From Alloyangia pacifica (lineage in GTDB: Bacteria > Pseudomonadota > Alphaproteobacteria > Rhodobacterales > Rhodobacteraceae): a stretch of DNA of 64,000 nt. Positions 34,966 through 52,815 of the stretch are shown here, one piece after another. A model generated the notes under the pieces. The model searched no databases. It had not been told where the DNA came from and worked only from the letters and a program-made list of their open reading frames with translations. The position numbers were made by a program, and so were the translations under genes. The DNA is taken from contig NZ_CP022189.1 of assembly GCF_003111685.1 (NCBI RefSeq), forward strand, positions 1,070,001 through 1,134,000, given 5' to 3'. Numbering within the stretch: the first letter of the stretch is position 1; each line of letters opens with the position of its first letter.

Positions 34966-35157
34966 ATCAATGGTCCTTCCAAGGACGGATCTATGCCCCT
35001 GAGCTTACACGATATGAACGAAATAGCGACAACCTCTGCACCCAAGGCGCGAGCTTCCGCGCATGTCCAAGTATTCGGGATTGAATTTATACAAGGTGCT
35101 TTCTGGAGGTCGGTTTGTGTCTCGGCGCGCCCGACGCACTCTTGTCATACGAAATTA

Positions 35158-35187
35158 TTGACAGTCATCATACAACTCATTCATAAC
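35158..35187 (+). promoter_or_regulatory. TRAP-operon promoter with GntR-type operator in the spacer
   Basis: A perfect -35 TTGACA (35158-35163) and a -10-like CATAAC (35182-35187, 18-bp spacer) bracket TCATCATACAAC (35165-35176). The complement of that 12-mer, GTTGTATGATGA, recurs exactly at 49614-49625 and nearly so at 51889-51900. Further TCATACG copies lie at 35145-35151 and 35200-35206. A repressor on the 12-mer would sit between -35 and -10. GntR (50922-51698) is the likely binder. Confidence 0.65.
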
Positions 35188-35224
35188 CGCCGCGTAACGT
35201 CATACGCATCTATGGGAGGAGAGG

Positions 35225-36214
35225 ATGATGTACTTCACCAAGACCAAAACGGCCCTGGTCGCGGCGACCGCGCTGTGCGGGCTGCTGGCAGGGGCGGCAC
35301 AGGCAGAGACCTGGCGTGCCTGGGCGATCCACCCCGAGGATTATCCGAACGTGGTCGCCATGCAGCAGTTTGCAGACGAGGTGACCGAAAAGACCGAGGG
35401 TCGGATCGAGCCGACCGTCTACGCCAACGGCGTGCTAGGCGCGCAGCCCGATGCGATTGAACAGGTCCGTGCCGGCGCCATCGCGGTGGGGAACTTCAAC
35501 ATGGGCCCGATGGGCGAGATCGTCCCGGCGACCAACGTGCTGTCGCTGCCCTTCATCTTCCGCGACGTGGACCACATGCACAAGGCGATGGACGGCGAGA
35601 TCGGCCAGCGCTTCTCGGATGCGCTCTCGGAAGAGGGGCTGGTTGCCCTGTCATGGATGGATAGCGGCTCGCGCTCGTTCTACAACACCAAGCACCCGAT
35701 CGAGACACCCGCCGACATGGACGGCATGAAGTTCCGGGTGATGAGCAACGATCTTTACGTGCAGATGGTCGACCAGCTGGGCGGCAACGCAACGCCCATG
35801 GCTTATGGCGAGGTCTACCAGTCGCTGAAGACCGGCGTGATCGACGGCGCCGAGAACAACTACCCGTCGTTCGAGAGCTCGAACCACTACGAGGTGGCCA
35901 AGTACTACTCGATCACCAACCACCTGATCATCCCCGAGTGCATCTGCGTCTCGACCAAGGTCTGGGACAAGGTCTCGGACGAGGACAAGGCGATCGTCAC
36001 CGAGGCGGCGGTTTCGGCGGCGGAAACCCAGCGCGAGCTCTGGGCTGAGCGCGAGGGCGCCTCGAAGCAGAAGGTGATCGATAGCGGCGTGACTGTGAAC
36101 GAGGTCACCGACGCGGCGGCGTTCCAGGCGGCGATGGAGCCGGTCTACGCCAAGTTCATCGAGAGCAACCCGGATCTGGAAGGCCTGATCCGCGACATCC
36201 AAGCGATCGAGTGA
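35225..36214 (+). CDS. TRAP transporter substrate-binding protein (DctP), probably uronate-specific
   Basis: Periplasmic receptor, 329 residues, with a signal peptide cleaved after AAQA (residue 27) and GGAGGAGAGG before the start. DctP-fold hallmarks: the KFRVMSND segment with the conserved carboxylate-binding Arg, and QSLKTGVIDGAENN. The operon it heads encodes galacturonate oxidation, so D-galacturonate (or glucuronate) is the likely ligand. A hairpin follows the gene. Confidence 0.92.
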   Translation: MMYFTKTKTALVAATALCGLLAGAAQAETWRAWAIHPEDYPNVVAMQQFADEVTEKTEGRIEPTVYANGVLGAQPDAIEQVRAGAIAVGNFNMGPMGEIVPATNVLSLPFIFRDVDHMHKAMDGEIGQRFSDALSEEGLVALSWMDSGSRSFYNTKHPIETPADMDGMKFRVMSNDLYVQMVDQLGGNATPMAYGEVYQSLKTGVIDGAENNYPSFESSNHYEVAKYYSITNHLIIPECICVSTKVWDKVSDEDKAIVTEAAVSAAETQRELWAEREGASKQKVIDSGVTVNEVTDAAAFQAAMEPVYAKFIESNPDLEGLIRDIQAIE

Positions 36215-36229
36215 TCTGAAGCAGGCTCA

Positions 36230-36253
36230 GGCGTGTCCCCGCGGGGACACGCC
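36230..36253 (+). terminator. post-binding-protein hairpin in the TRAP operon
   Basis: GGCGTGTCCCC (36230-36240) pairs perfectly with GGGGACACGCC (36243-36253), nearly a continuous palindrome, 15 nt after the stop. No T-run follows, so it should stabilise the dctP message or reduce read-through only partly. Confidence 0.65.
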
Positions 36254-36269
36254 CATTCCGGGAGAGACC

Positions 36270-36773
36270 ATGGCACAGAGCCACGTGGCCGGGGCAGGGG
36301 CCGTCTATCGCCTGCTCGACCTGCTAGCGCGGGTCTGCGTGACGGTGGCCGGAACCGGCCTCGTCCTCCTGATCGCCATCTTCGGCTGGCTGGTCTGGGG
36401 GCGCTACATCCTGAACGACACCCCCACCTGGGTCGAGCAGCTGGCGCTGCTCCTCGTGGTCTGGATCACCTTTCTCGGGGCTGCGGCGGGCGTCTGGGGC
36501 CGCACCCACCTCTCGGTGGATTTCCTGCGCGACGCCTTTCCCGGCCCGATCGCCATGGCGATGAAATGGCTCGCGCTCGTCGGCGTGCTGATCTTCGCGC
36601 TCTGCCTCGGCTGGCAGGGCTACATCCTGGCCGAGAACACCTGGGCCCGCACCGTGCCGATGCTCGGTATCTCCGAGGGCCTGCGCGCCGTGCCGATGGC
36701 CATCTGCGGCGCTCTGAGCGCGCTTTTCACCCTCTATCAAATGGCCGAGCTGGCAAAGGGTCGCGGGTACTGA
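36270..36773 (+). CDS. TRAP transporter small permease (DctQ)
   Basis: A 167-residue four-helix membrane subunit. WVEQLALLLVVWITFLGAAAG (about 50-71) with the following HLSVDF is the DctQ signature. A ribosome site GGGAGAGACC precedes the ATG. One nt separates its stop from the start of the large permease. Confidence 0.92.
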   Translation: MAQSHVAGAGAVYRLLDLLARVCVTVAGTGLVLLIAIFGWLVWGRYILNDTPTWVEQLALLLVVWITFLGAAAGVWGRTHLSVDFLRDAFPGPIAMAMKWLALVGVLIFALCLGWQGYILAENTWARTVPMLGISEGLRAVPMAICGALSALFTLYQMAELAKGRGY

Positions 36774-36774
36774 C

Positions 36775-38052
36775 ATGGGTTTGATCATTCTTTTCGGGAC
36801 TTTCGGCTTTGGTCTCATCTGCGGCATGCCGGTGGCCTTCGCACTGGGCCTCGCTGCGGTCAGCGGCTTCGTTTACGAGGGTTTGCCGCTCTTCATCGCC
36901 TTCCAGCGGGTGCTCTCGGGCATCTCTGTCTTCTCGCTGCTGGCCATCCCCTTCTTCATCTTCGCCGGCGAGCTGATGATGCATGGCGGCATCGCCGGGC
37001 GGCTGGTGCGGCTGGCCTCTTCGGCGGTGGGCGCGATGCGCGGCGGGCTGGGCGTGGTCAACGTCGCCTCATCCATGCTCTTCGGCGGCATTTCGGGCTC
37101 GGCAGTGGCCGACACCTCGGCGCTGGGATCGATCCTCATCCCAGTGATGAAGGAAAAGGGCTATGACCCCGACTACGCGGTGAACGTCACGGTGACCTCC
37201 TCGGTGGCGGGCGTGGTGATCCCGCCGTCGCACAACATGATCCTCTTTGCCGTGGCGGCGGGCGGCGTGTCGGTCTCGAAACTGTTCATCGCAGGCGTCA
37301 TCCCCGGCATCCTGATGTGCCTCTGCCTCGGCATCGTGGCCTATGCGGTGGCCGTGCGCCGCGGTTACCCGGCTGAAACCTTTCCGGGATGGAAGGCGCT
37401 CGGCCTGTCCTTCGTTGTCGCCCTGCCGGGGCTGATGACCGCGATCATCGTGGTGGGCGGCGTGCTCTCGGGCGTCATGACGGTCACAGAGTCCGGCGCT
37501 TTCGGCGCGATCTGGGCCATCCTCGTGACCACCTTCGTCTACCGCGAGCTGAGCTGGGCGGGCTTCAAGACCGCCGTCGTCAGCTCGGTGCGCACGACGG
37601 CGCTGGTGATGCTGCTGGTGGCGACGGCCTCGGCCTTTTCCTACCTGCTGACCCTCTACCGGGTGCCCGAGCTGCTGGCGGGCGCGGTCACCGGGATTTC
37701 CGACAACCCCTTGGTGATCCTGCTGCTGCTGAACCTGATCTTGCTGGTGCTCGGGATGATCATGGACATGGCGGCGCTGATCCTGATCTGCACGCCGATC
37801 TTCCTGCCCGTCGCGGTGGGGCTCGGCATGGACCCGGTGCAATTCGGCGTGGTGATGATGATGAACCTCGGCCTTGGCCTCTGCACCCCGCCGGTGGGCG
37901 CCTGCCTCTTCGTGGGCTGCGTCGTCGGCGGCGTGCGGATCGAACAGGCGGTGAAGACGATCCTGCCATTCTACGCGGCGATCCTCGTGGCGCTGATGCT
38001 GGTGACATATGTGCCCGCCTTCTCCATGTTCCTGCCAAGCCTGATGGAGTGA
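36775..38052 (+). CDS. TRAP transporter large permease (DctM)
   Basis: The 425-residue sodium-coupled transport subunit with about 12 helices. Family features include IPFFIFAGELM, GGISGSAVADTSALG (about 103-117) and VIPPSHNMI. It forms the importer with DctP and DctQ. Confidence 0.95.
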   Translation: MGLIILFGTFGFGLICGMPVAFALGLAAVSGFVYEGLPLFIAFQRVLSGISVFSLLAIPFFIFAGELMMHGGIAGRLVRLASSAVGAMRGGLGVVNVASSMLFGGISGSAVADTSALGSILIPVMKEKGYDPDYAVNVTVTSSVAGVVIPPSHNMILFAVAAGGVSVSKLFIAGVIPGILMCLCLGIVAYAVAVRRGYPAETFPGWKALGLSFVVALPGLMTAIIVVGGVLSGVMTVTESGAFGAIWAILVTTFVYRELSWAGFKTAVVSSVRTTALVMLLVATASAFSYLLTLYRVPELLAGAVTGISDNPLVILLLLNLILLVLGMIMDMAALILICTPIFLPVAVGLGMDPVQFGVVMMMNLGLGLCTPPVGACLFVGCVVGGVRIEQAVKTILPFYAAILVALMLVTYVPAFSMFLPSLME

Positions 38053-38057
38053 GAGAC

Positions 38058-39819
<1,762 letters not shown>

Positions 39820-39834
39820 GGCAAGGACAGACCC

Positions 39835-40968
39835 ATGAAGATTACCGAGATCCGCACCCATCTTCTGGAACACAGGCTGGAGACGGCGTTTGAAAGTGCC
39901 TCCATGCGCTTCGATCGGCGGGTGCATCTGCTGGTCGAGGTGGTCTGCGACGATGGCACCACGGGCTGGGGCGAATGCCTCGGCCCGGCGGGACCGAACC
40001 GCGCCATGGTCGAGGCCTATACGCCCTGGCTCATCGGCAAGGACCCTCTGGAGACGGAGAAGCACTGGGCCGTGCTCTACAACGCGCTGCGCGATCAGGG
40101 GCAGCGGGGGATCTCGGTCTGCGCGCTTTCCGGCATCGACATCGCGCTCTGGGACATCAAGGGCAAGCACTTCGGCGTGCCGGTCTCGACCCTGCTCGGC
40201 GGTCGCTTCCGCGAGAAGGTGCGGGCCTATGCCACCGGCTCGTTCAAGCGCGACGGGGTGGATCGGGTCGCGGACAATGCCGAGGAGACCGGCCGCCACG
40301 CGGCGGACGGCTTCCACGCGGTGAAGATCAAGATCGGCTTCGACCCTGCAGAGGACCTGCAGGTGATCAAGGCGGTGCGCGAGGCCATCGGCCCGGAGAC
40401 CCGGCTGATGATCGACGGCAATCACGGCTATGACGTGATCGAGGCGGTGCGGGTCGGCAATGCCGCTGCCGAGTATGACATCGACTGGTTCGAAGAACCG
40501 GTGATCCCGGAGCAGCTGGGTGCCTATGCCGAGGTCCGCGCACGACAGCCGATCCCGGTGGCGGGGGGCGAGACATGGCACACCCGCTGGGGATTTGCCG
40601 AGCCGCTGCGGCGGCGGGTAATCGACATCGCCCAGCCCGACCTCTGCGGCGTGGGCGGCTTCACCGAGGCCAAGCGCGTGGCCGATCTTGCCACGCTGCA
40701 CGGGGTGCGCGTGGTGCCGCACGTCTGGGGCACCGCGGTCCAGATCGCCGCCGCGCTGCAGTTCATGGCGTCGATGGTGCCCGACCCGGTGCGCCGCGGT
40801 CCGATCGAGCCGATCATGGAGTTCGACCGCACCCACAACCCGTTCCGGCAGGCGGTGGTGACGCGGCCCATCGAGCATGAGAACGGCTGGGTCACCATCC
40901 CAGACGCGCCGGGACTGGGGATCGAGATCGACCGCGCTGCCCTCAAGGATTTCGCACCGAAGGGCTGA
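39835..40968 (+). CDS. gci: galactarolactone cycloisomerase
   Basis: Enolase-superfamily enzyme that opens galactarolactone to 5-keto-4-deoxyglucarate, the substrate of KdgD. 377 residues. The N-terminus (KITEIRTHLLEHRL...FESASMRFDRR) and many later stretches match my recollection of Agrobacterium Gci. Catalytic Lys166 lies in VKIKIGF; metal ligands in IDGNHGY, WFEEPV and AGGETWH; the partner His in VVPHVWGT. It lies 15 nt after kdgD. Confidence 0.94.
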   Translation: MKITEIRTHLLEHRLETAFESASMRFDRRVHLLVEVVCDDGTTGWGECLGPAGPNRAMVEAYTPWLIGKDPLETEKHWAVLYNALRDQGQRGISVCALSGIDIALWDIKGKHFGVPVSTLLGGRFREKVRAYATGSFKRDGVDRVADNAEETGRHAADGFHAVKIKIGFDPAEDLQVIKAVREAIGPETRLMIDGNHGYDVIEAVRVGNAAAEYDIDWFEEPVIPEQLGAYAEVRARQPIPVAGGETWHTRWGFAEPLRRRVIDIAQPDLCGVGGFTEAKRVADLATLHGVRVVPHVWGTAVQIAAALQFMASMVPDPVRRGPIEPIMEFDRTHNPFRQAVVTRPIEHENGWVTIPDAPGLGIEIDRAALKDFAPKG

Positions 40969-41020
40969 ACGTCCTGACGGCGTTCCGTCTCTCACCTCAT
41001 ATCGCCTCGAAGGACCGACG

Positions 41021-41881
41021 ATGATCGACCGCAAGCTCACCGGCGCAAAGCCCAGGACCCGGATGCCCAAGGGCGCCTGCGACACGCAGATGCACATGTA
41101 CCTGCCGGGCTACGGCTGGCGGGCGGATGGCAAAGGCGTGCCCGCCGAGCCTCTGCCCACGCCCGAGATGTACCGCAAGACCATGGGCTGGCTCGGCATC
41201 GACCGGGTGGTGATCACCCAGGGCAACGGGCACCAAATGGACAACGCCAGCCTGCTCGCCTGCGTCGCCGAGATGGGCGAGTGCGCGCGCGGCGTGGCGG
41301 TGATCACCGGCGAGACCTCGGAGGCGGAGATGACGCGGCTGGCCGAGAGCGGGATCGTCGGCGCGCGGATCATGGATCTGCCCGGCGGGGCGGTGGGTCT
41401 CGATCAGCTCGAGGCGGTGGATGCGCGCGCCCATGCGGCGGGATGGATGATGGCGGTGCAATTCGACGGCACCGCGCTCCAGGAGCTGGAGCCGAGGCTG
41501 GCGAAGCTGAGATCCAACTGGGTGCTCGACCATCATGGCAAGATCTTCGGCGGCATCACCCCCGAGCATGTCGCCACCATCAAGCGGCTCATCGACGGGG
41601 GCCGGTGCTGGTTCAAGTTCGCCGGCTGCTACGAGGCGACCACGATGTCGGGCCCCGACTATCCCGACATCGCCGCGCTCAGCCGCGAAATTGGGGCTCA
41701 CGCCCCCGAGCGCATCGTCTGGGGCACCAACTGGCCGCACAACGCCGCCAGCCGCACCGAGGACTATCCCGACGACGCTCATCTGCTGGATCTTGCCATG
41801 AGCTGGCTGCCGGATGACGCGCAGCACCGCGCACTGGTGGAGAACCCGCAGCAGCTCTATGGTTTTCCTCAGATAAGCTAG
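41021..41881 (+). CDS. gli: galactarolactone isomerase (amidohydrolase superfamily)
   Basis: 286 residues from the ATG at 41021, AAGGACC upstream. Amidohydrolase fold of the COG3618 group: CDTQMHMY near the N-terminus, LDHHGK, and WGTNWPHN near the end. In Agrobacterium the neighbour of Gci is a galactaro-delta-lactone isomerase converting the 1,5-lactone made by Udh into the 1,4-lactone; gene order here supports the same role. The alternative is a simple aldarolactone hydrolase. Confidence 0.85.
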   Translation: MIDRKLTGAKPRTRMPKGACDTQMHMYLPGYGWRADGKGVPAEPLPTPEMYRKTMGWLGIDRVVITQGNGHQMDNASLLACVAEMGECARGVAVITGETSEAEMTRLAESGIVGARIMDLPGGAVGLDQLEAVDARAHAAGWMMAVQFDGTALQELEPRLAKLRSNWVLDHHGKIFGGITPEHVATIKRLIDGGRCWFKFAGCYEATTMSGPDYPDIAALSREIGAHAPERIVWGTNWPHNAASRTEDYPDDAHLLDLAMSWLPDDAQHRALVENPQQLYGFPQIS

Positions 41882-41890
41882 GGAGACAGC

Positions 41891-42523
41891 ATGGCCCGGA
41901 TACTTTGCTATGGCGACAGCCTCACCTGGGGGCACGATGCCGCCAATGGCGCGCAGCGCCACGCGATTGCCGATCTCTGGCCCTCGGTGCTGGCCGAGGC
42001 GCTTCCTGGTGTCACGGTGCTGGCCGACGGGGTCGGCGGGCGCACCACCTCCTTTGACGATCATGCCGCGCCCTGTGACCGCAACGCCACGCGCACGCTG
42101 CCGGTGGCGCTGGCGGCGCATATGCCGCTCGATGCGGTGGTGATCCTTCTGGGTACGAACGATCTCAAGCCGAAGTTCGGCGGGATGGCGATCAGCGCGC
42201 AGCAGGGGATGCGCCGGCTGGTCCAGCTGGTGCGGGGCTTTCCCTACACGCCTGCCAGCGCGGTGCCCAAGGTGCTGATCGTCGCGCCGCCGCTTTGCAC
42301 CGCGCCTGCGCAGGGCGCCTCCGACAGCCCCATCCGTGCCGAGCAATCGGCGCTCTTCGCCCCGCTCTACGCGGCGCTGGCAGAAGAGATGGGCGTGGCC
42401 GTCTTCGATGCAGGAACCGTCGCGCAGGCCTCGCCGGTGGATGGCATCCACCTCGATGCGGCGAACACCCGCGCGATCGGCGCGGCATTGGCAGAGCCGG
42501 TGCGCGCGCTGCTGGCTATCTGA
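41891..42523 (+). CDS. SGNH/GDSL hydrolase
   Basis: 210 residues. Block I GDSLTWG (nucleophile Ser10), block III GTNDLK, and block V DGIHLD are all visible; the block II Gly lies in VGGRTTS. No signal peptide, so cytoplasmic. In this operon it may deacetylate imported pectic oligomers or open a lactone; sequence alone also allows a general arylesterase. Its stop is four nt from the stop of the convergent GH105 gene. Confidence 0.8.
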   Translation: MARILCYGDSLTWGHDAANGAQRHAIADLWPSVLAEALPGVTVLADGVGGRTTSFDDHAAPCDRNATRTLPVALAAHMPLDAVVILLGTNDLKPKFGGMAISAQQGMRRLVQLVRGFPYTPASAVPKVLIVAPPLCTAPAQGASDSPIRAEQSALFAPLYAALAEEMGVAVFDAGTVAQASPVDGIHLDAANTRAIGAALAEPVRALLAI

Positions 42524-42527
42524 CCCG

Positions 42528-43607
42528 TCAGGCGGGGGCGCGGGCGGTGAGCCGCTGCGCCGCCGCCATCATCAGCGGGCCGACGCCCTTGGCATCATCC
42601 TCGACAACCTCCTCGCTGAGGTAATACTCGCGCGAGCCATCGCGCATCTTGCCATCGAAGCCGCCGAGCCCCGCCACGTGGCAGATGCCGGTGAGCCGAG
42701 TCACGCCGCCCTCCGTCTCCAGCCGGGAGTCGACCAACGCATCATGGGCGCGTTGCCCGGCGTCGAACCATTCGCCCAGACCAAGTTCGGTGCCGCGCAT
42801 CAGCGCGTAGGCGAACATGGCCGAGGCCGAGCTTTCCTCGTAGTTGCCCGGCAGGTCCGGCGCGTCGAGCACCTGCGGCCAGAGACCGGATGCGGCTTGC
42901 TGGCGCACGACGGAGGTGAGCAGATCGAAGGTCTGGCGCTTCGGCGCGCGCTCGGGAGCCAGCGCAGAGATGTCGACCAGCGCCATGGCAAGCCAGCCCA
43001 CAGCGCGCGCCCAGACCGCCGCCGACTTGCCGGTCTCGGGATCGGCCCAGCCCTGCGCCCTTGCCGCGTCGTAGCCATGCACGTAAAGCCCCGCCGGGCC
43101 GCGGGTCAGCTCGAGCGCGCGCGCAAGCTGCGCCAGCGCATCCTCGACCAGCGCGGGTTGCGCCTGGCGTATCCCGTATTCGATCTGGAAGGGCAGGCCC
43201 ATGTAGAGCCCGTCGAGCCAGACCTGCTGCGGGTAGCGCTGCTTGTGCCAGTAGTTGCCTGCTGCGGTGCGCGGGTGGCGTGAGAGCTGCTCGGCGAGAT
43301 GCCCGGCGGCTGCCATGTAGCGCGGATCCCCGGTCTCGTCGGCGAGGTGGAAGAGACAGCGCCCCGCAAGGATGTGGTCGATGTTGAACTCGTCGATCCG
43401 GTAGCCCGCCAGCGTGCCGTCGCGGGCGATCTGCGCATCTGTCAGGCGTCTGAGGTGATCCCACCAGCGCGCCTCGCCGGTGGCCTCGTGCAGCAAGGCG
43501 AGGCCACGGTAGACGCAGCCGTCCTCGTAGCACCAGCTGCCGGCCTTGTAATGGCTGTAGCGGGCCGCGAAGGCGTCGAAATACTCCAGGACATCGGGAA
43601 GGGTCAT
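42528..43607 (-). CDS. GH105 unsaturated (rhamno)galacturonyl hydrolase
   Basis: A 359-residue alpha/alpha-barrel enzyme that hydrates the double bond of a 4,5-unsaturated uronic acid at the non-reducing end, releasing it from the oligomer. YteR/RhiN-type motifs are present: [11 protein letters not shown] (general acid Asp near 130), HGYD, and [10 protein letters not shown]. No signal peptide, so it acts on imported fragments. Its product feeds KdgF and KduI. Start overlaps the GH28 stop (ATGA). Confidence 0.92.
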
Positions 43608-45160
43608 GGCTGGGCGAGGCTCCGGTTGAGGACATCGTCGGTGCTGAGCGGGGCGGCGTCGGCAGACAGATCCCCGACGACCGTGGCGTGTTCGGCGCGC
43701 ACGCCCGAGTGGCGCAGGGCGCGCACGCCGTCGGCCATGAGCGGCGGCGCGGGGCGGGCGCCGGGATCAAGCGAGACCAAGGTGACCTTCGAGAGCCGGA
43801 TCGGGCCGATCGGGGCTTCTGGCAGGCCGAGGAAGGCGCCGAGCGCATGGGCAAGGCTGCGCACCTCGACGTTCTCGACGGTGATCTTGCCGATGCGCGG
43901 CGTCAGTTGGCTGACCGCGGCGGGCGCGCGGGACTGCACCCAGTCCGCATGGCCGTCGTGGTCGCAGAAGTAATGGGCGTTGGCCGAAAAGGCGGTGAGC
44001 ACCCCGTCCATGGTCACGTTGCGCATGACAATGCGGGCAATCTCGCCGCCGCGGCCGCGCCGGGTCTTCAGCCGCAGCCCGCGGTCGGTGCCGACCATCT
44101 CGCAATCGCACACGGTCACGTCGGTGACGCTGCCCGACATCTCCGAGCCGATGACGCAGCCGCCGTGGCCCCGCTCCATCAGGCAATGCTGCACGGTGAT
44201 GCGGCGGGTGGGGCGCAGGTGATCCGCCTCGCCCTTGTCGCCGCGCTTGCCCGCCTTGATCGCGATGCAGTCGTCGCCGACCGAGAAATGCGTGCCGACG
44301 ATGGTGACGTCCTCGCACATGTCGGGATCGAAGCCGTCGGTGTTGGGGCTGTCGTGCGGCGCCTGAATGGTCAGGCAGGCGGCAAAGAGATCGTGGCAGC
44401 CCTGCGGGTGGATGGTCCAGCTCGGCGCGTTGCGGATGGTGAAGCCGATGAGGCGGGTGGCCTCGGCGTCGATGAGATGCAGCCCGCGCGGGCGGCGGGC
44501 ACCCTCGCGCGTTTCCTTGGCCCAGGTCCACCAGTCGCCGCGGTCGCCGCCGCCGTCGAGCGTGCCGAGACCCTCGATGGTCAGGTTGCGCGTGCGTATG
44601 GCGTGCAGCGGTGCGCGGAAGCAGGGTTCGGGCAGCCCTTCCCAGGAGCCGAGCATCGTGCCGTCGGGGTTGCGGGCGGGCAGGATCGGCCAGCCGCTGC
44701 GGTCGGAGGAGGGGGCGAGGGTGGCGCCTTCGGAAAGGTGCAGGATCATGTCCGAGCGCAGCTCGACCGGGCCGCAGACCCAGTGGCCGGGCGGGACGAT
44801 CAGCGTGCCGCCCTTCGGCAGCGCGGCGATCGCCTGGGTAAAGGCGGCGGCGTTACCGGCGGCGGCGAGGGGCGTGTCTGCCAGGCCCGCGCGGGCACCG
44901 AAGTCGGTCACTTCCAGCGCGCCGGGGCAGGGGGCCGTGGTGAAGCCCAAGGTCTCGCCGCCGCAGTAGAAGGCGTAATCGCTGTCCGGCTCCAGTGGGC
45001 CGAGCGGCAGCACCACGCGGGACGCCATGCCCTCGGCGACGGTCTCGCCGTTGCGGCTCAGGCGCCAGGGGCGGGCCGGGTCGAGCGTGAAGCGGGCAGG
45101 CGGCGGCGCGAGGCAAAGCACGGCCATGCGCGGGGTCACCGCGGCGCAACGGAGGGTCAT
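43604..45160 (-). CDS. GH28 polygalacturonase, apparently cytoplasmic
   Basis: A 518-residue right-handed beta-helix glycosidase that hydrolyses alpha-1,4-galacturonan. The three catalytic acids are visible: Asp275 (NTDGFDP), Asp296 and Asp297 ([11 protein letters not shown]); [11 protein letters not shown] gives the His. The N-terminus carries a small beta domain typical of exo-acting bacterial enzymes (PehX type). Most such enzymes are secreted, but the start ([12 protein letters not shown]) is not a convincing signal peptide. With the ABC importer upstream it probably cuts imported oligogalacturonides, giving galacturonate to Udh. Confidence 0.92.
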
Positions 45161-45186
45161 GGGGCGGACTTTCGTCTTGGGGATGC

Positions 45187-45214
45187 GGGGCGGCCCGGAG
45201 TGGCGGGCCGCCCC
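45187..45214 (-). terminator. post-binding-protein hairpin in the oligogalacturonide operon
   Basis: GGGGCGGCCCG (45187-45197) pairs perfectly with CGGGCCGCCCC (45204-45214), loop of six. It lies 23 nt after the binding-protein stop and upstream of GH28 on the leftward strand; no T-run. Confidence 0.6.
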
Positions 45215-45237
45215 CTTGGAAGACCTCAGGTCCGAGG

Positions 45238-46515
45238 TCAGTCGAACTGGCTCAGCACGTCGTTGGCGCCTTCGATGATGTACGCGGCGGCTTCCTCGGC
45301 GCTGACCATGCCGTAGGCGAATTCCTCGAGCGTATCGACGAAGGTGGCGCGCAGCTCGGGGTGCTCGTTGAACGGCGACACGGCGGGGCCTTCGGAGGCC
45401 ATCATGATCTCATGCGCCTCGAGCAGTTCGGGCTTGATCTGGCCGGCGGCCTGCAGCCGCTCCAGCGCTACCTTCGAGGCCGGCAGGCCCCGGGTGTCGC
45501 CAAGCGCGTCGATGCCCTCGGGCTCGTTGACCAGGCAGTTGAGGATTTCGGCCGCGGCCTCGGGGTTCTTGGAGTTCTTCGACACGGCAAAGAGCATCGA
45601 CGGCTTGCGGTAGACACCTTGGGTCACCGCGTCCTCGAAGGTCACCATCGGTACGGCGGCCAGCAGTTCTCCGTCCTGCAGCGGATCGGAGAACTTGAAG
45701 TAGGTGCTGTCCCACTCGTAGGAGCCGGCGATCTTGCCCTCGGCCCAGGCGGTCTTTTCGTAGAGCTTCACGTTGCCCTCGGCGGCCTCGTCCTGGCGCG
45801 ACTGGATGGCACCGGTGTCGACCATGCGCTGATAGAAGTTGATCCCTTCGGTCAGCTCTTCGGGGGTCCATGCTACGCGGTTGGTTTCCGGGTCCACGAG
45901 GTCCTTGCCGGTCTTCTGGGTGACCGCGAGCGAGACCAGCAGCTGGGCGCTTTCCGAGACGGCGTTGAACAGGCGGTACTCCTCGCCCTCCTTGTCGCGC
46001 AGCGCCTCGGCGGCGCCGAAGAATTCTTCCCAGGTCGTCGGCGCGCTCAGCCCGGCCTCTTCAAGCGTGGTGGTGTTGAAGAAGAAGACACGGCCGGTGG
46101 TCGAGACCGGGATGCCCTGCACGTGGCCCTTGACAGTGACGCCGTCGAGATCGGTCTGCGGATATTGCGACAGCTCCACCGCGCCGAGCTCGTTCAGGTC
46201 CGCAAAGCCGGTGCCATCGCGCGAGAAGAGCGGCAACCAGGGCCAGTTCACCTGGATCAGGTCGGCCTCGGTGCCGCCGGCCATCTGGGTGGTGAGCTTC
46301 TCGAGGTAGCCCGAGAAGCCGGTGAACTCGGGGGCGATGCTGTGGCCGTGTTTTTCGCCGCAGGCCTTGAGCGCTTCCTGCGTGGCGACGTGGCGCGAGT
46401 CGCCCCCCCACCAGCTCATCCGCAGCTCGGCGGCGTTTGCCATACTGGCGGCAGATGACAGCGCACAGGGCACCAGTGCGCTTGCAAGCAGCGCCTTTTT
46501 GATCGTCGACTTCAT
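45238..46515 (-). CDS. ABC transporter sugar-binding protein, TogB-like (oligogalacturonide)
   Basis: Periplasmic receptor, 425 residues, family 1 solute-binding protein. Signal peptide [28 protein letters not shown]. The mature start [12 protein letters not shown] and the [15 protein letters not shown] segment resemble TogB of pectinolytic enterobacteria. Genes for GH28 and GH105 directly downstream support oligogalacturonides as the ligand. It follows its ATPase gene by 29 nt. Confidence 0.9.
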
Positions 46516-46544
46516 TTTGAAAACTCCTCCTCCAAGTTTTCGGA

Positions 46545-47651
46545 TCAGCCCGCGAGGGGCAGGGATACGTTCGCGCCGCTCTGGCGGTCGAAGATATGCG
46601 CGTGGGCAAGATCGGGCGTCAGGCGGATGCTCTCGTCCGAGCGGTCGAGCGCGTCATATTCCGCGGCACCGGCGACGGTGGTGATCTGCTTTCCCTCGAG
46701 CATGGCATGCAGGTAGACCTCGTGCCCCATGAACTCGGCCGAGCGCAGGCGGGCGGTCAGCCCGTTGCCCGCCGAGAGCTTCATGTGCTGCGGGCGGATG
46801 CCGAGCGCCGCCTCCTGCGGCTTCGACTGCATCCGGCTCAGCACCGCCTCGTCGAGCGAGATCACCTGCCCGCCGAGGCGAAAGTCGGTGCCCTCGATCT
46901 CGCCGTCGATCACGTTCATCTCGGGCGAGCCGATGAAGCCCGCGACGAAGAGGTTGGCGGGGCGGTCGTAAAGCTCTTTCGGGGTGGCGACCTGCATGAT
47001 GTGGCCATCCTTCATCACGCAGATGCGGTCGCCCATGGTCATCGCCTCGGTCTGGTCGTGGGTGACGTAGACCACGGTCGACGGGCGGCCCTCGGCCTTC
47101 AGCCGCTTGTGCAGGTCGGTGATCCGCACCCGCATCGAGGCGCGCAGCTTGGCGTCGAGGTTCGAGAGCGGCTCGTCGAAGAGGAACACCTCGGGCTTCT
47201 TGATAAGCGCGCGGCCCAAAGCCACGCGCTGCGCCTGTCCGCCGGAGAGCTGCTTTGGCAGCCGGTCGAGCAGCGGCTCGATCTCGAGGATGCGCGCGAC
47301 CTCCTGCACGGCGGCTTCGCGCTCGGCTTTTGGCACATGCGCGAGGCGCAGGCCGAAGGCAAGGTTGGAGCGTACCTTCATGTGCGGATAGAGCGCGTAA
47401 TTCTGGAACACCATGGCGATGCGACGCTTGCCGGGGGGCAGGGCGTTGACGATGCGATCGCCGATGCGGATCTCGCCGGAGGTCACCTCCTCGAGTCCGG
47501 CGATCATCCGCAGCGTGGTGGACTTGGCGCAGCCCGAGGGGCCGACAAGCACCATGAACTCGCCTTCTTCCACGTCGAGGTCGATGCCGTGCACTGCCTT
47601 GAACGCGCCGCCATAGACCTTTTCGAGCTTGCTGAGTTGCAGACGTGCCAT
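46545..47651 (-). CDS. ABC transporter ATPase, UgpC/MsmX type (TogA-like)
   Basis: Energises the oligogalacturonide importer, 368 residues from the ATG at 47651 (AAGGA upstream). Walker A GPSGCAKST has Ala for the usual Gly but keeps the Lys and Ser. Then FQNYALYPHM (Q-loop), LSGGQAQRVALGRAL, FLFDEPLSNLDAKLR, the H-loop, and the C-terminal TOBE/MalK regulatory domain. It lies five nt after the second permease. Confidence 0.93.
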   Translation of the reverse strand: MARLQLSKLEKVYGGAFKAVHGIDLDVEEGEFMVLVGPSGCAKSTTLRMIAGLEEVTSGEIRIGDRIVNALPPGKRRIAMVFQNYALYPHMKVRSNLAFGLRLAHVPKAEREAAVQEVARILEIEPLLDRLPKQLSGGQAQRVALGRALIKKPEVFLFDEPLSNLDAKLRASMRVRITDLHKRLKAEGRPSTVVYVTHDQTEAMTMGDRICVMKDGHIMQVATPKELYDRPANLFVAGFIGSPEMNVIDGEIEGTDFRLGGQVISLDEAVLSRMQSKPQEAALGIRPQHMKLSAGNGLTARLRSAEFMGHEVYLHAMLEGKQITTVAGAAEYDALDRSDESIRLTPDLAHAHIFDRQSGANVSLPLAG

Positions 47652-47656
47652 TGCGA

Positions 47657-48580
47657 TTATCCTTTCACCCCACCGGCCGAGAGGCCTTCGATGAAGTATT
47701 TCTGAGCCATGAAGAACACGATGAGCGCGGGCGTGATGGTGAGCACCGACATCGCCAGGATGCGGTTCCATTCGAACGCCTCGGTCGTGTCGATCGAGAG
47801 TTTCAGCGCCAGGCTGACCGGATACTTGTCGACCGAGCTGATGTAGATGAGCGGGCCGAGGAAGTCGTTCATCGTCCACATGAATTGGAAGAGGCACACC
47901 GAGATCAGCGCGGGGGCCAGCATCGGCACCACGATGAACACCAGCGTCTGCCAGCTGTTCGCGCCGTCGACCCGCGCCGCCTCTTCCATGTCGCCGGGGA
48001 TCGCGCGCAGGAACTGCACCAGCATGAAGACGAAGAAGGCGTCACCGGCAAAGGCCGAGGGCACCCAGAGCGGCAGGAAGCTGTCGAGCCAGCCCAGATC
48101 GCGGAACAGCAGGTACTGCGGGATGCGGGTGACCACGTTGGGCAGCAGCAGGATGGCGATCACCGAGCCGAAGAGCAGCTTTTTCAGCGGGAAGTCGAAA
48201 CGGGCGAAGCCGTAGGCTACCATGGTGCAGCTGATTGCCGTGCCGATCACCTTGGGGATGATGATCAAAAAGGAGTTCAGGAAGAACCGCCCGAAGGTGT
48301 AGGGGGTCGAGGTCTCCCAGCCCTTCACATAACCCTCGGCGGTGGGCTCCTGCGGGATGAAGCCGGGGTTGGCGAAGATCTCGGCGTTGGTCTTGAACGA
48401 CGCGCCGACCAGCCAGATCAGCGGGTAGAGCATCAAGAGCCCCACCCCAAAGAGGATGACATAGCGGACCGCGGCCGAGACTTTGGCGTTGCGGATCTGC
48501 CGGGCGTTGGCCGCGCGGGCTTCGGCGAGGCCATCGGCACCGGCGGAAAGGACATCGGAGGCGTGGGAGATATCGGTCAT
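47657..48580 (-). CDS. ABC sugar transporter permease 2, TogN/MalG-like
   Basis: 307 residues, from the ATG at 48580 with GGAG upstream. Six helices and the EAA coupling loop (MEEAARVDGANSWQTLVFIVVP). A hydrophilic N-terminus of about 37 residues precedes helix 1. Two nt separate it from the first permease. Confidence 0.93.
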   Translation of the reverse strand: MTDISHASDVLSAGADGLAEARAANARQIRNAKVSAAVRYVILFGVGLLMLYPLIWLVGASFKTNAEIFANPGFIPQEPTAEGYVKGWETSTPYTFGRFFLNSFLIIIPKVIGTAISCTMVAYGFARFDFPLKKLLFGSVIAILLLPNVVTRIPQYLLFRDLGWLDSFLPLWVPSAFAGDAFFVFMLVQFLRAIPGDMEEAARVDGANSWQTLVFIVVPMLAPALISVCLFQFMWTMNDFLGPLIYISSVDKYPVSLALKLSIDTTEAFEWNRILAMSVLTITPALIVFFMAQKYFIEGLSAGGVKG

Positions 48581-48582
48581 GT

Positions 48583-49464
48583 TCAGCTCCGCTTGTCGCC
48601 GGCGTAGTAGACCCACTTCTTCGAAGACCAGAAGGCCGCGAGGGTGAGCACCATGATGATCACGAAGAGCACCCAGGCGATGGCCGAGGCATAGCCCATG
48701 TCGAAGCGGCGGAAGGCCTCGTCGTAGATGTACATCGGCAGGAGGTAAGTGGACTTCAGCGGGCCGCCCTGGGTGATGATGTAGGGGCCGTTGAACTCCT
48801 GAAACGCCTGGACCATCTGCATGATCAGGTTGAAGAAAATCACCGGGGTGATCAGCGGGATGGTGATGAACAGGAAGCAATGCGCCTTGCTCGCGCCGTC
48901 GATCTCGGCGGCCTCGTAGAGCGACTTGTCGATCGACTGCAGGGCCGCGAGGAAGATCACCATCGCCGAGCCGAATTGCCAGCAGCGCAGCAGCGTGATG
49001 GTGAAGAGCGCGTTCTGCGGATCGCCGAACCAGTTCACCGCCTCGAAGCCGAGCCCGGTGAGCATCATGTTCACCAGCCCCTCGGAGGCGAAGATGTAAC
49101 GCCAGAGCACCGCGATGGCGATCGACCCGCCAAGGATCGACGGCACATAGAAGGCGGTGCGGAAGAAATTGATGAACTTCAGCTTGTAGTTGAGGATATA
49201 GGCGATGAAGAGCGCGAAGGCGAGCTTCAGTGGCACCGTGGTGAACACATAGATCAGCGTCACCGTCAGCGACCGTCTGAACGTCCGGTCCTTGGTGAAG
49301 AGATCGGTGTAATTCTCCAGTCCCGTCCATCTTGGTGCCGACATGAGGTTGTAGTCGGTGAAGCTGAGATAGAGCGAAGCCCCGAAGGGGATCATCGTGA
49401 AGACCAGAAGACCGATGATATAGGGCGCGAGGTAGCCAAGCCCCAGAGCGCGCTTGCGCGTCAT
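48583..49464 (-). CDS. ABC sugar transporter permease 1, TogM/MalF-like
   Basis: 293 residues, six helices, with the EAA loop LYEAAEIDGASKAHCFLFITIP near 190-211. First gene of the leftward operon that continues through the second permease, ATPase, binding protein, GH28 and GH105. Confidence 0.93.
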   Translation of the reverse strand: MTRKRALGLGYLAPYIIGLLVFTMIPFGASLYLSFTDYNLMSAPRWTGLENYTDLFTKDRTFRRSLTVTLIYVFTTVPLKLAFALFIAYILNYKLKFINFFRTAFYVPSILGGSIAIAVLWRYIFASEGLVNMMLTGLGFEAVNWFGDPQNALFTITLLRCWQFGSAMVIFLAALQSIDKSLYEAAEIDGASKAHCFLFITIPLITPVIFFNLIMQMVQAFQEFNGPYIITQGGPLKSTYLLPMYIYDEAFRRFDMGYASAIAWVLFVIIMVLTLAAFWSSKKWVYYAGDKRS

Positions 49465-49593
49465 GGCCGACCTCCCTCGCCCCGACCTGCCGAGACGGCG
49501 GTCAACTTCGGCAAAATAAGCATATGTCCTCCCGAACTGTGCGGAATTCGCCCGTCCCGTGACGTCAGCTTGCCCCCTCCTCGGGGCTGGCGG

Positions 49594-49625
49594 GTGACAG
49601 GCGGTCCTCTACAGTTGTATGATGA
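49594..49625 (+). promoter_or_regulatory. GntR-type operator over the -10 of the AraC-gene promoter
   Basis: GTTGTATGATGA (49614-49625), the exact complement of the site at 35165-35176. Its core TATGAT (49618-49623) is a good -10 with GTGACA (49594-49599) as -35 at an 18-bp spacing. The intergenic region is shared with the leftward transporter operon, so one site could control both directions. Confidence 0.6.
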
Positions 49626-49664
49626 ATTCATGACAGATGGCGAGCGTGGATTGAATTCACCAAG

Positions 49665-50585
49665 ATGGCGAAAAAGATGGACGAAATCGGAGGTTCAATT
49701 CTCGACCGGGTGCCCGCCTCCGCGCTGACCCTGACGCTGACCCGTTCAGCGATCCGCATGCAGCACTCGAGGCTCTGGCGGATCGAGAAGGAAAACCCGG
49801 TCGAGGACCTGGTGATCGCGCTCGAGGGGCGCGGCGAGTACATCGTGGGCAAGGAGCGCTTCCCGCTGGCGCCGGGCGAGGCGATGCTGTTGCGGCGGGG
49901 CGAAGCCTTCTGCGGCTGGAACGAGGGCGCGGGTCTCTACACCGGGCTGGCGCAGCATTTCACACTCGGCATCTACGGCGACACCGACCTCATCGCGCAG
50001 ATGGACCTGCGGCGGAAGGTGCGGCTGTCACGCTGGGCCGAGCTGGCGCCGCTCATTCGCAGCTACCGACAGAGCGCGCCGCCGAATTCGGTGACGCTGA
50101 TGCAGCACCACCTCTTCATGGTCTTTCTGATCGCCTTCATCGATGATGCCTTCCTGGGCTGGCGGCAGGGCGGGGCTGTGCCGATTGACGGGGCGGCGGC
50201 GATCGATCTGGCGGTGATGAAGGCTGCGGCGCAGATTTCGACCGCACCGCTCGATCCCGAGGTTGCGGCGCGGGCGGTCGAGGCAGCCCCCTACAACGAC
50301 GACTATTTCCATCGCGCCTTCCGCGACCGGCTCGGGCGTACGCCGCGCCAGTACCAGGAGTATTGCCGGATGGAGCGGGCCATGTCGTTGCTCGAGCGCG
50401 GCATGAGCCCGTCGCAGGTTGCCGAGGAAATCGGCTATGCCGACCCTTATTACTTCAGCCGGGCCTTCAAGCGGCAAATGGGCATCAGCCCGCGCGGCCA
50501 CCAGCAAAGGGTGAAGCGCGCGCAGGACGGGCAGGTCATGGGTATGGACGAGGCCGATCAGGCACGGGCCCTGGGGCAGGCATGA
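49665..50585 (+). CDS. AraC-family transcriptional regulator
   Basis: 306 residues. The N-terminal half is a cupin-like sensing domain (EGRGEYIVGKERFPLAPGEAMLLRRGE, about 54-80). The C-terminal pair of helix-turn-helices (about 200-290) ends with the AraC signature VAEEIGYADPYYFSRAFKRQMG. It probably activates the divergent oligogalacturonide operon. The ribosome site is weak, and Met5 is an alternative start. Its stop is nine nt from that of the convergent kdgF. Confidence 0.88.
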   Translation: MAKKMDEIGGSILDRVPASALTLTLTRSAIRMQHSRLWRIEKENPVEDLVIALEGRGEYIVGKERFPLAPGEAMLLRRGEAFCGWNEGAGLYTGLAQHFTLGIYGDTDLIAQMDLRRKVRLSRWAELAPLIRSYRQSAPPNSVTLMQHHLFMVFLIAFIDDAFLGWRQGGAVPIDGAAAIDLAVMKAAAQISTAPLDPEVAARAVEAAPYNDDYFHRAFRDRLGRTPRQYQEYCRMERAMSLLERGMSPSQVAEEIGYADPYYFSRAFKRQMGISPRGHQQRVKRAQDGQVMGMDEADQARALGQA

Positions 50586-50594
50586 GCGCCTGTT

Positions 50595-50903
50595 TCAGAG
50601 GAAATCGTCGCGGCGCGGGGTGAAGCAGTCGATCAGCCGCCCGGCGTCATGGCACTCGCAGCCGTGCTTGGCATTGGAGGGGATGACAAAGCTGTCGCCC
50701 GGCTTCACCTCGAAGCTCTCGTCGCCGAGGAAGAAGGTAAAGCGCCCGCTCTCGCAATAGGTCGACTGCACATGCGGGTGGTGATGCATCGCGCCTTTGG
50801 CTCCGGTCTCGAAGCGGAATGAGACGACCATCAGCTCGGGGCTGTCGGCCAGCACCTGCCGGGCGACGCCGGTGTCGGGAAAGACGACGGGGAAATTGCT
50901 CAT
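50595..50903 (-). CDS. kdgF: KdgF, unsaturated uronate linearising cupin
   Basis: A 102-residue single cupin that converts 4,5-unsaturated galacturonate to linear 5-keto-4-deoxyuronate (DKI). Metal ligands are visible: His40-42, His44 and Gln46 (GAMHHHPHVQ) and a later His in NAKHGCE. The C-terminus CFTPRRDDFL matches the KdgF ending. It fills the step between GH105 release and KduI. It follows the GntR gene by 18 nt. Confidence 0.92.
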   Translation of the reverse strand: MSNFPVVFPDTGVARQVLADSPELMVVSFRFETGAKGAMHHHPHVQSTYCESGRFTFFLGDESFEVKPGDSFVIPSNAKHGCECHDAGRLIDCFTPRRDDFL

Positions 50904-50921
50904 GAGAGCCTCCTGTTGGGC

Positions 50922-51698
50922 CTATTGACCGGACTTGCGCAGCAGGTTGCGGTAGCGTGACTGCGCGCCCTTGAGATGCAGGCGCATGGCCCGCCGTGCG
51001 TCGTCCTCGTCGCCGTCGATGATCGCGCTGACGATGGCCTCGTGCTCGGCGTCGATGGCCTGCAGGTAGGTCGCGGTGGCGGCATCGGTGCCGTCGCTCA
51101 GCGCGTGGCGCGGGATCAGGCTTGCCCCGATCATCGACAGGAAGTCGCGAAAGCGCGGGTTGTTGGTGGCATCGGCGATGGCGAGATGCAGCTCGAAATC
51201 CGCCGGCGCCGTCGGCTCTCCCGATGCGGCCTTGGCACGCAGCGCCGCCAGCGCCTGCAGGATCAGCTCTTCCTGCGCGGGCGAGCGGCGCAGGGCGGCG
51301 AGCCCTGCAGCCTCGACCTCGACGGCGGTGCGCAGTTCGAGCATCTCGATCATCGAGGAAATGCGTACGAAATCGATGTTCTGGAACGGCAGGTCCAGCT
51401 CAGGGCGCTGGTCGAGCACGAAGACCCCGGCGCCCTGCCGCGGCTCCACCAGCCCGTCGTAGCGCAGCGATGCCACCGCCTCGCGCACCACGGTGCGGCT
51501 GACCTCGAACTCCTCGGTCATCTTGGCCTCGCTCGGCAGGCGGCTGCCGGGGGCGTATTGCCCGCTCTCGATCTGCGCCCGCAGGCGGTCACGCACCTGC
51601 TCGACGAGGGTCTTGCCGCTGCCGCGCGAGGGGCGGGCCGTCCTGACTTTCTGCTCGGTCACGTTCTTGGTCTTCTTGTTCCTGGCTTGGTCATACAT
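50922..51698 (-). CDS. GntR-family (FadR/FCD) regulator of the pectin genes
   Basis: 258 residues. A basic N-terminal arm is followed by a winged helix (LPSEAKMTEEFEVSRTVVREAVASLRYDGLV, about 54-84), then an all-helical FCD ligand domain with the metal-binding Asp/His pattern (DFELHLAIADATNN, and HEAI, HLKG). The likely effector is a pathway intermediate such as a keto-deoxyuronate or aldarate. Its own start overlaps a partial TGTATGA site (51689-51698 region), suggesting autoregulation. Co-transcribed with kdgF. Confidence 0.9.
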   Translation of the reverse strand: MYDQARNKKTKNVTEQKVRTARPSRGSGKTLVEQVRDRLRAQIESGQYAPGSRLPSEAKMTEEFEVSRTVVREAVASLRYDGLVEPRQGAGVFVLDQRPELDLPFQNIDFVRISSMIEMLELRTAVEVEAAGLAALRRSPAQEELILQALAALRAKAASGEPTAPADFELHLAIADATNNPRFRDFLSMIGASLIPRHALSDGTDAATATYLQAIDAEHEAIVSAIIDGDEDDARRAMRLHLKGAQSRYRNLLRKSGQ

Positions 51699-51886
51699 AT
51701 AATACAGGTTTCCTCGGGGCTGTCCATGTCCGGTGGCGGGAAGATCGCCGCGCGCTCTCGATCTTCCATCCCATTGGCGAGGCGGCAGGCAGGAGTTTTC
51801 CTGTAGTTATTTCAAGAAGATGGACGGCAGTGCCTAGGCTGGCCATCCGCGAGCAAGGCGGCGCCCGGACATCTGACCGCTTCGCA

Positions 51887-51903
51887 ATGTTGTATGATAA
51901 CAT
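51887..51903 (+). promoter_or_regulatory. GntR-type operator upstream of kduI
   Basis: ATGTTGTATGATAACAT: 5-bp inverted arms ATGTT/AACAT around GTATGAT, the usual form of an FCD-GntR operator. It shares GTTGTATGAT with the sites at 35165-35176 and 49614-49625, and lies 87 nt before kduI and 189 nt before the divergent GntR gene. Confidence 0.65.
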
Positions 51904-51990: not shown

Positions 51991-52815
51991 ATGCTGACCG
52001 TCGAAACCCGCCACGCCATCCACCCGACCCAGGCCCGCGACATGTGGACCGAGGAGCTGCGCGAGCACTTCCTTACCCAGGGCATGTTCCGCGAGGGCGA
52101 GATCCGGCTCGTCTACACCCATTACGACCGTTTCGTCATGGGCGGCGCGGTGCCCGGCGCCGGCACGCTGACGCTCGACGTGGTGGACGAGACCCGGACC
52201 CCGAGCTTTCTTGATCGCCGCGAGATGGGCATCGTCAACATCGGCGAGGCGGGCACTGTGGAGGCCGGGGGCGAGACCTACGAGATGGGCCGGGGCGATG
52301 TGCTTTACCTCGGAATGGGCACGGGGGTGGTGTCCTTCTCCGGCGCGGGGCGCTTCTACATCACGTCCTGCCCGGCGCATAAGAGCTACCCGTCGAAGCT
52401 GATCACCCTGGCCGATTGCGTCGAGGTGACCATGGGCGCGCCAGAGACCTCGAACAAGCGCACCATCAAGCAGTTCATCCATCCGCAGGTGATGGAGAGC
52501 TGCCAGCTGATCCTCGGCTATACCTCGCTGGAGGAAGGCTCGGTCTGGAACACCATCCCCAGCCACATCCATGACCGCCGTATGGAGGCATATCTCTACT
52601 GGGGCATGGACGAGGAGAGCCGCGTGCTGCATCTGATGGGCGAGCCCGACGAGACCCGGCACCTCTTCGTCGCCAACGAGGAAGGCGTCGTCAGCCCGAG
52701 TTGGTCGATCCACTCCGGCGCGGGCATCGGCAAGTATACCTTCATCTGGGCGATGGCTGGCGACAACGTCGATTACACCGACATGGACTTCATCCAGCCC
52801 AAGGACCTGCGCTGA
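51991..52815 (+). CDS. kduI: 5-dehydro-4-deoxy-D-glucuronate isomerase
   Basis: Isomerises DKI to 2,5-diketo-3-deoxygluconate. 274 residues, two cupin-like halves. Zinc site in PSHIHDRRMEAY (His, His and Glu), with a further His near LHLMGEP/ETRHLF. GGGAGAGA precedes the ATG. Overlaps kduD by one nt (TGATG). Confidence 0.95.
   Translation: MLTVETRHAIHPTQARDMWTEELREHFLTQGMFREGEIRLVYTHYDRFVMGGAVPGAGTLTLDVVDETRTPSFLDRREMGIVNIGEAGTVEAGGETYEMGRGDVLYLGMGTGVVSFSGAGRFYITSCPAHKSYPSKLITLADCVEVTMGAPETSNKRTIKQFIHPQVMESCQLILGYTSLEEGSVWNTIPSHIHDRRMEAYLYWGMDEESRVLHLMGEPDETRHLFVANEEGVVSPSWSIHSGAGIGKYTFIWAMAGDNVDYTDMDFIQPKDLR

Follow-up and report, generated by a model that had tools for sequence, protein, structure and literature searches.

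The pectin-use locus of Alloyangia pacifica raises the question of which regulator governs its genes, and through which DNA sites it would do so. The locus lies in a stretch of 64,000 nucleotides (NCBI RefSeq assembly GCF_003111685.1, contig NZ_CP022189.1, positions 1,070,001 to 1,134,000 of the forward strand), which we call the window and number from its first letter. An earlier examination of the letters alone, here the sequence-only reading, had pointed to an exact 12-mer, GTTGTATGATGA, at 49614-49625 (+) and 35165-35176 (-), and to GTTGTATGATAAC at 51889-51901 (+) within the palindrome ATGTTGTATGATAACAT (51887-51903). All of them are found where it placed them, and they precede, as it stated, the operon of a tripartite ATP-independent periplasmic (TRAP) transporter and udh, the divergence between araC and the ATP-binding cassette (ABC) transporter/GH28/GH105 genes, and kduID. 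Our preferred answer, to which we give a probability of roughly 0.85, is that these sites are operators of a GaaR-type GntR/FCD repressor encoded in the locus itself (50922-51698) and induced by galacturonate or an acid derived from it. This type of switch is already known, and the locus is a clear new case of it, in which the operator, the extended target set and the autoregulatory site at gntR appear to be new.

Proposed operators and promoter geometry

The sites are built on the core TTGTATGAYRA, conserved over 11 bp, which shows the half-site layout TTGT-N3-AYRA as in FCD operators; the left box TTGT is present in operators A, B and C, and the right box reads ATGA or ATAA in the window. 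The sites and the proposed dctP promoter elements are:

35142..35152, minus strand: second, weaker copy resembling the operator, TCGTATGACAA, its centre 23 bp upstream of that of operator A
35158..35163, plus strand: proposed -35 of the dctP promoter, TTGACA, identical in the window and the four nearest relatives
35165..35176, minus strand: operator A, GTTGTATGATGA, which takes up the -35/-10 spacer in the promoter of dctP (TRAP/udh operon)
35182..35187, plus strand: proposed -10 of the dctP promoter, CATAAC, after an 18-bp spacer
49614..49625, plus strand: operator B, GTTGTATGATGA, whose core begins 50 bp before araC and which holds the -10-like TATGAT
51697..51707, minus strand: operator D, core CTGTATTATAT, over the -10 (TATTAT) of the gntR promoter
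51887..51903, plus strand: operator C, palindrome ATGTTGTATGATAACAT, in the divergent gap between gntR and kduI, ahead of kduI

A matrix built from relatives, without use of the window's genome or of the four genomes nearest to it, gives the three sites ranks one to three in the window and places the site over the gntR -10 at rank four, all four exceeding the largest of 20 shuffles. Its training sites were chosen by eye for likeness to the core, some of them from a same-genus genome (G088), and one training 17-mer is identical to operator B, so that the first rank is partly built in; operators A, C and D were not in the training set. The secondary copy comes fifth, its score of 14.0 lying within the shuffle range (maximum of the 20 shuffles, 14.7), and it is found at the same place, with changes, in all four nearest relatives.

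At dctP the TTGACA and CATAAC hexamers flank the site just as had been described, and the spacer between them contains the whole of operator A. This pair was missed by the promoter scanner, whose rule demands T at position 6 and which listed another pair instead. In the window and the four nearest relatives, a conserved block takes in the second copy, TTGACAG, the operator and CATAA and reaches as far as the start codon, the sequence further upstream having diverged; conservation around the dctP operator in these five genomes is thus not confined to the operator. The arrangement TTGACAG-operator-CATA is seen again in genomes G306, G088, G305 and G301.

The sequence-only reading had also allowed that the site is partly a promoter element, and this option holds up in part. 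The TATGAT at 49618-49623 in operator B may indeed serve as a -10 for araC, and the TATTAT at gntR is likewise a plausible -10 hexamer, but at dctP the 12-mer stands inverted inside the spacer of another promoter, a position that rules out a plain promoter element there. That the 12-mer is mainly an extended -10 (TGTATGAT) common to three promoters is in our view highly improbable, given that the conserved core of 11 bp exceeds a hexamer and is limited to three places in the genome, unlike a promoter element.

A partial site had been proposed over the start of gntR. Its core is real and has the window's fourth best score, but the ATG that it touches is probably not the true start. Among the four nearest relatives the listed ATG is retained only in L045, while over the stretch 51660-51698 L046 has a stop in that frame, L047 lacks the ATG and L048 carries an extra base; GTGACCGAGCAG follows in all five genomes, in each of which a GTG at codon 13 is conserved. 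Since the ATG is not kept in relatives while the downstream stretch is conserved in all five, the true gntR start is probably the GTG at 51660-51662. The only promoter-like match in the gntR gap is TGGACA-16-TATTAT (10 of 12), and AACCTGTAWTAT at this promoter is kept in the window and the four nearest relatives. Because the relatives' matrix ranks the site over the gntR -10 fourth, gntR is likely to be autoregulated and would be a probable fourth target.

In the ten loci with GTTGTATGATGA ahead of araC, the protein match starts 50-56 bp after the beginning of the core, and the gap between the araC and ABC matches varies from 192 to 227 bp. The site at 49614 therefore keeps its distance to araC, and AraC may be the route by which the ABC/GH28/GH105 genes are controlled. 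Operator C stands 90 bp ahead of kduI, without a clear position relative to a promoter, which could be taken to mean that the GntR protein acts as an activator, or in a mixed manner, rather than as a simple repressor. We consider this very improbable, as operator A between the proposed -35 and -10 and operator D over a -10 occupy occlusion positions.

Specificity of the core and its recurrence in relatives

In the 5,165,968-base genome, TTGTATGAYRA occurs exactly at three places, which are the three sites, against one for the reversed control and 0.8 to 1.1 places per genome expected by chance from the window's composition. The full 12-mer GTTGTATGATGA is present twice in the whole 5.17-Mb genome, both times in the window locus, versus an expected count of 0.08 (order-1) to 0.12 (order-2 Markov model, window composition). 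With one mismatch allowed it is found at six places (the two exact copies, the kduI site, L003, L005 and L006), versus none for the reversed control pattern; L003 lies inside a coding frame read as elongation factor G. No pectin gene was recognised at the one- and two-mismatch places of the genome, as judged from the frames in 3-kb loci only. The looser 13-mer GTTGTATGATAAC, with up to two mismatches, was discarded as non-specific (8 places versus 4 for the control). Note also that the one-mismatch site L006, GTTGGATGATGA (C7 70828-70839), is situated some 120 bp past the FCD domain in a further FCD gene (C7 70348-70704).

Recurrence of the core was scored in the 300 bp upstream of the relevant genes of relatives, with 30 shuffles per sequence as the chance level. 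Upstream of dctP, 14 of 39 rows have the exact core and 18 of 39 have it when one mismatch is allowed (shuffles 0.0 and 0.5). This set left out three duplicates and five paralogue rows (L145-L149, 40-49% identical); genomes G303 and G042 are the same, as are G307 and G088, and one of each was retained, the core-match assignment using G303 and G307. None of 17 further dctP places had the core with at most one mismatch, so that overall 18 of 61 dctP rows (39 + 17 + the 5 paralogue rows) carry the site. Upstream of kduI the corresponding figures are 7/19 exact and 12/19 with at most one mismatch (shuffles 0.0 and 0.2). Among 15 araC loci, ten carry GTTGTATGATGA and one TTGTATGATAA, and four are without either within 300 bp; in G039 the core stands 312 bp before araC. 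A full consensus match with the right box ACAA, TTGTATGACAA, precedes dctP of G039 and kduI of G308 (L137, L114). The core thus recurs before dctP, kduI and araC in relatives, including other genera.

The same type of operator is shared with rhizobia. The matrix from Rhodobacteraceae, in which two sites of the window itself are included, finds its best site in the udh/gntR gap in eight of nine rhizobial loci and its second best there in the ninth, and places the gntR/kdgD gap first or second in eight of them and third in L065; all nine loci with this gene order thus share the operator type in both gaps, although L067 and L068 are near-identical. In L055, which has another gene order, the best site lies just before udh, and in L051 it is not by a tracked gene. 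A rhizobia-only matrix applied to the window gives first rank to the gntR site, second to B and fourth to C, with A outside the top 8; the absence of A there implies that the operators of the two groups differ somewhat. As a separate observation, Rhizobium sp. FKL33 has an exact GTTGTATGATGA just before a gene read as a sugar-binding protein (L076, position 1501).

The regulator that goes with the sites

The product of gntR is a regulator of the GntR family, FadR/FCD subfamily, both domain cut-offs being met (PF00392, 72.7 bits against a cut-off of 27; PF07729, 86.8 bits against 24.3). It is below cut-off in all 25 NCBIfam families shown. The FCD metal site is made of one Asp and three His, and the protein contains D-x3-H at H171 and further His at 198, 219 and 241, as judged by residue presence only.

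Of 295 family genomes, 38 contain a relative of this protein (E<=1e-30), and 27 named loci have one as well. Some of these loci come from strains of a single species, and the C58 locus of Agrobacterium is not among them. At 24 of these 27 loci (not in L050, L051 and L071) there is at least one galacturonate or pectin gene of the window type. The site stands before 18 of 29 dctP genes in GntR-carrying genomes versus 0 of 27 in GntR-negative family genomes (no match at E<=1e-30), with a Fisher p of 1.6e-7 that is uncorrected for kinship or for the lower dctP identity in the GntR-negative group; some of the counted GntR matches are distant (37-51%). With the first 12 GntR-negative genomes alone, compared with 18/27, p is 7.5e-5. 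In GntR-carrying genomes, 37 of 68 exact cores lie near tracked genes.

Could the AraC-family protein encoded at 49665 bind the 12-mer as an activator site? Its gene adjoins one of the sites, and AraC proteins often bind asymmetric sequences. However, the site is retained before dctP (G192, G128 and G017 exactly, G092 with one mismatch) or kduI (G308 exactly, G097 and G121 with one mismatch) in seven genomes that lack an AraC match (E<=1e-40), four of the seven having it exactly, and nine rhizobial loci (L061, L063-L070) carry it with no AraC match within the 20 kb covered, while the core itself shows FCD half-site symmetry. The genomes that keep the site without AraC led us to reject AraC as the binder, and we hold this explanation to be extremely improbable. 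These observations support the view that it is the GntR/FCD protein, and not AraC, that the site accompanies. As far as sequence comparison can tell, the prediction of a single regulator with at least three target units would hold, the core being confined in the genome, recurring before the same genes and co-occurring with GntR/FCD.

Several results weigh against operators read by the locus-encoded repressor. In the window the right half-site is ATRA, versus the canonical ACMA. The site is missing before dctP of G299 (81% identical) and others, before kduI of G300, G301, G039 and G226, before araC of G299, G094, G226 and, within 300 bp, G039, and before all five dctP paralogue rows in GntR-carrying genomes; the relatives, moreover, are non-independent draws. 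In GntR-carrying genomes, 31 of the 68 exact cores are not beside tracked genes; the reversed control gave 29 (hand-summed), so these unassigned cores are about what chance gives. The 12 GntR-negative genomes searched, in which only dctP was tracked, hold 31 exact cores versus 15 for the reversed control, with 0/31 near dctP; this excess is not explicable by the regulator considered here, and the core has other uses there. Nine of these 31 cores are in G127 and six in G146, none of them before dctP, where another regulator may use the core.

The genome of A. pacifica has 33 FCD-domain matches, one of them with an internal stop, which also bears on whether another FCD regulator binds the sites or several share them. 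Furthermore, a 19-bp sequence identical to the dctP promoter-operator of the window, TTGACAGTCATCATACAAC, is present in two relatives, Alloyangia mangrovi and Salipiger mangrovisoli (L081 and L100, about 1490-1515), where it precedes an unrelated TRAP operon that adjoins a different FCD gene, and the FCD protein there is 42% identical to the window's GntR protein with a close recognition segment. Another FCD protein could consequently use the core, and cross-binding is possible. Yet only the locus protein reached E<=1e-30 in the genome (9 of 57 first-look candidates scored), and its orthologue sits with galacturonate genes and the site in both Rhodobacteraceae and rhizobia, for which reason we regard control by another FCD regulator as unlikely.

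Proposed mechanism, related systems and genes of the locus

From the positions of the sites and from the known Agrobacterium GaaR, we infer that the locus GntR protein binds these sites, represses rather than activates, by steric hindrance, and is relieved by galacturonate or a product of it. In the absence of inducer, a dimer on TTGT-N3-AYRA would block RNA polymerase. At dctP it would occupy the interval from -35 to -10, at araC and gntR the -10 or its immediate neighbourhood, and at kduI a position upstream of the gene; binding of galacturonate, or of an acid closely derived from it, in the FCD domain would then release the repressor. The targets would be the TRAP/udh operon, kduID, araC and gntR itself, and the ABC/GH28/GH105 operon would be reached via AraC or directly. 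It is conceivable, though we would put it below an even chance, that this forms a two-tier pectin circuit, in which the GaaR-type repressor, as master regulator, directly turns off the uptake and oxidation of the monomer, kduID and gntR itself and also holds down an AraC activator that in turn drives the polymer-level ABC, GH28 and GH105 genes. If so, the intracellular monomer acid would license the attack on the polymer.

GaaR of Agrobacterium tumefaciens was reportedly described by Zhao and Binns in 2016 as a GntR repressor of the galacturonate TRAP genes gaaPQM, relieved by galacturonate. As with GaaR, the window's GntR/FCD protein has udh, kdgD, gci, gli and TRAP genes as its neighbours; the operator type is shared by rhizobial loci of this gene order, and Agrobacterium proteins were found at 60% identity (P0057, P0058). 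Unlike those of GaaR, its targets would extend to kduID and araC/ABC/GH28/GH105. The window's left half-site is TTGT, in contrast to the mostly CTGT rhizobial sites seen. UxuR and ExuR of enterobacteria are also FCD GntR proteins over hexuronate genes; the window protein differs from them, its scores of 88 and 79 bits falling well short of the NCBIfam cut-offs (442 and 396).

The genes gaaPQM correspond to atu3135-3137 and the pathway to atu3138-3143 (PMC6683767). The consensus given for the FadR subfamily is TKGT/ACMA with 3 nt between GT and AC, with weaker extra boxes near the main sites at 7-12 nt from the site centre (PMC4494728). Compared with this consensus, the window shares the left half TTGT and the 3 nt between GT and the right half, and differs in its right half AYRA and in the extra dctP copy 23 bp away, centre to centre. 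In a Halomonas strain, the galactarate/glucarate regulator GguR, of the GntR family, is described as controlling Udh, Gli, Gci and a hexuronate TRAP transporter (PMC5507952); the window's GntR-family protein likewise stands beside Udh, Gli, Gci and TRAP genes, a likeness by gene content. A literature search that lacked most subscription journals recognised no paper describing the extended target set, the operator or the gntR autoregulatory site. The result is a precise and testable pectin-use regulon for Rhodobacteraceae related to Salipiger and Alloyangia, with a named operator, likely cognate protein, four target units and promoter geometry, and its link to the rhizobial galacturonate system makes a hexuronate operator/sensor pair comparable across groups.

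The genes of the locus are:

35225..38052, plus strand: dctP, dctQ and dctM, TRAP transporter (Pfam; nearest solved chain 4p1l)
38055..41881, plus strand: udh, kdgD (DHDPS family), gci (enolase superfamily) and a gli-like amidohydrolase gene, oxidative galacturonate pathway
41891..42523, plus strand: GDSL-type hydrolase, last gene of the TRAP/udh operon
42528..49464, minus strand: ABC sugar transporter, GH28 polygalacturonase and GH88/105-family hydrolase (Pfam, NCBIfam)
49665..50585, plus strand: AraC-family regulator gene (profile match)
50922..51698, minus strand: gntR, GntR/FCD regulator and proposed binder (Pfam)
51991..53558, plus strand: kduI and kduD (NCBIfam equivalogs over cut-off)

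The dctPQM transporter would serve hexuronate uptake. Solved structures point to a uronate dehydrogenase (3rft) and a keto-deoxy-galactarate dehydratase (4ur7), and for the enolase-superfamily enzyme the best solved relative is 4ggb/4hpn, the amidohydrolase being near 4mup; we take 4mup to be related to lactonases and 4hpn to be the galactarolactone cycloisomerase of Agrobacterium. The GH28 protein exceeds the cut-off of the PglA equivalog, and the GH88 family is assigned by Pfam, GH105 being the finer name used by the sequence-only reading. Adjoining kduD, 53721-55679 (-) encodes a 652-aa multihaem cytochrome with HEAT and TPR repeats, which is found nearby in the four nearest relatives too.

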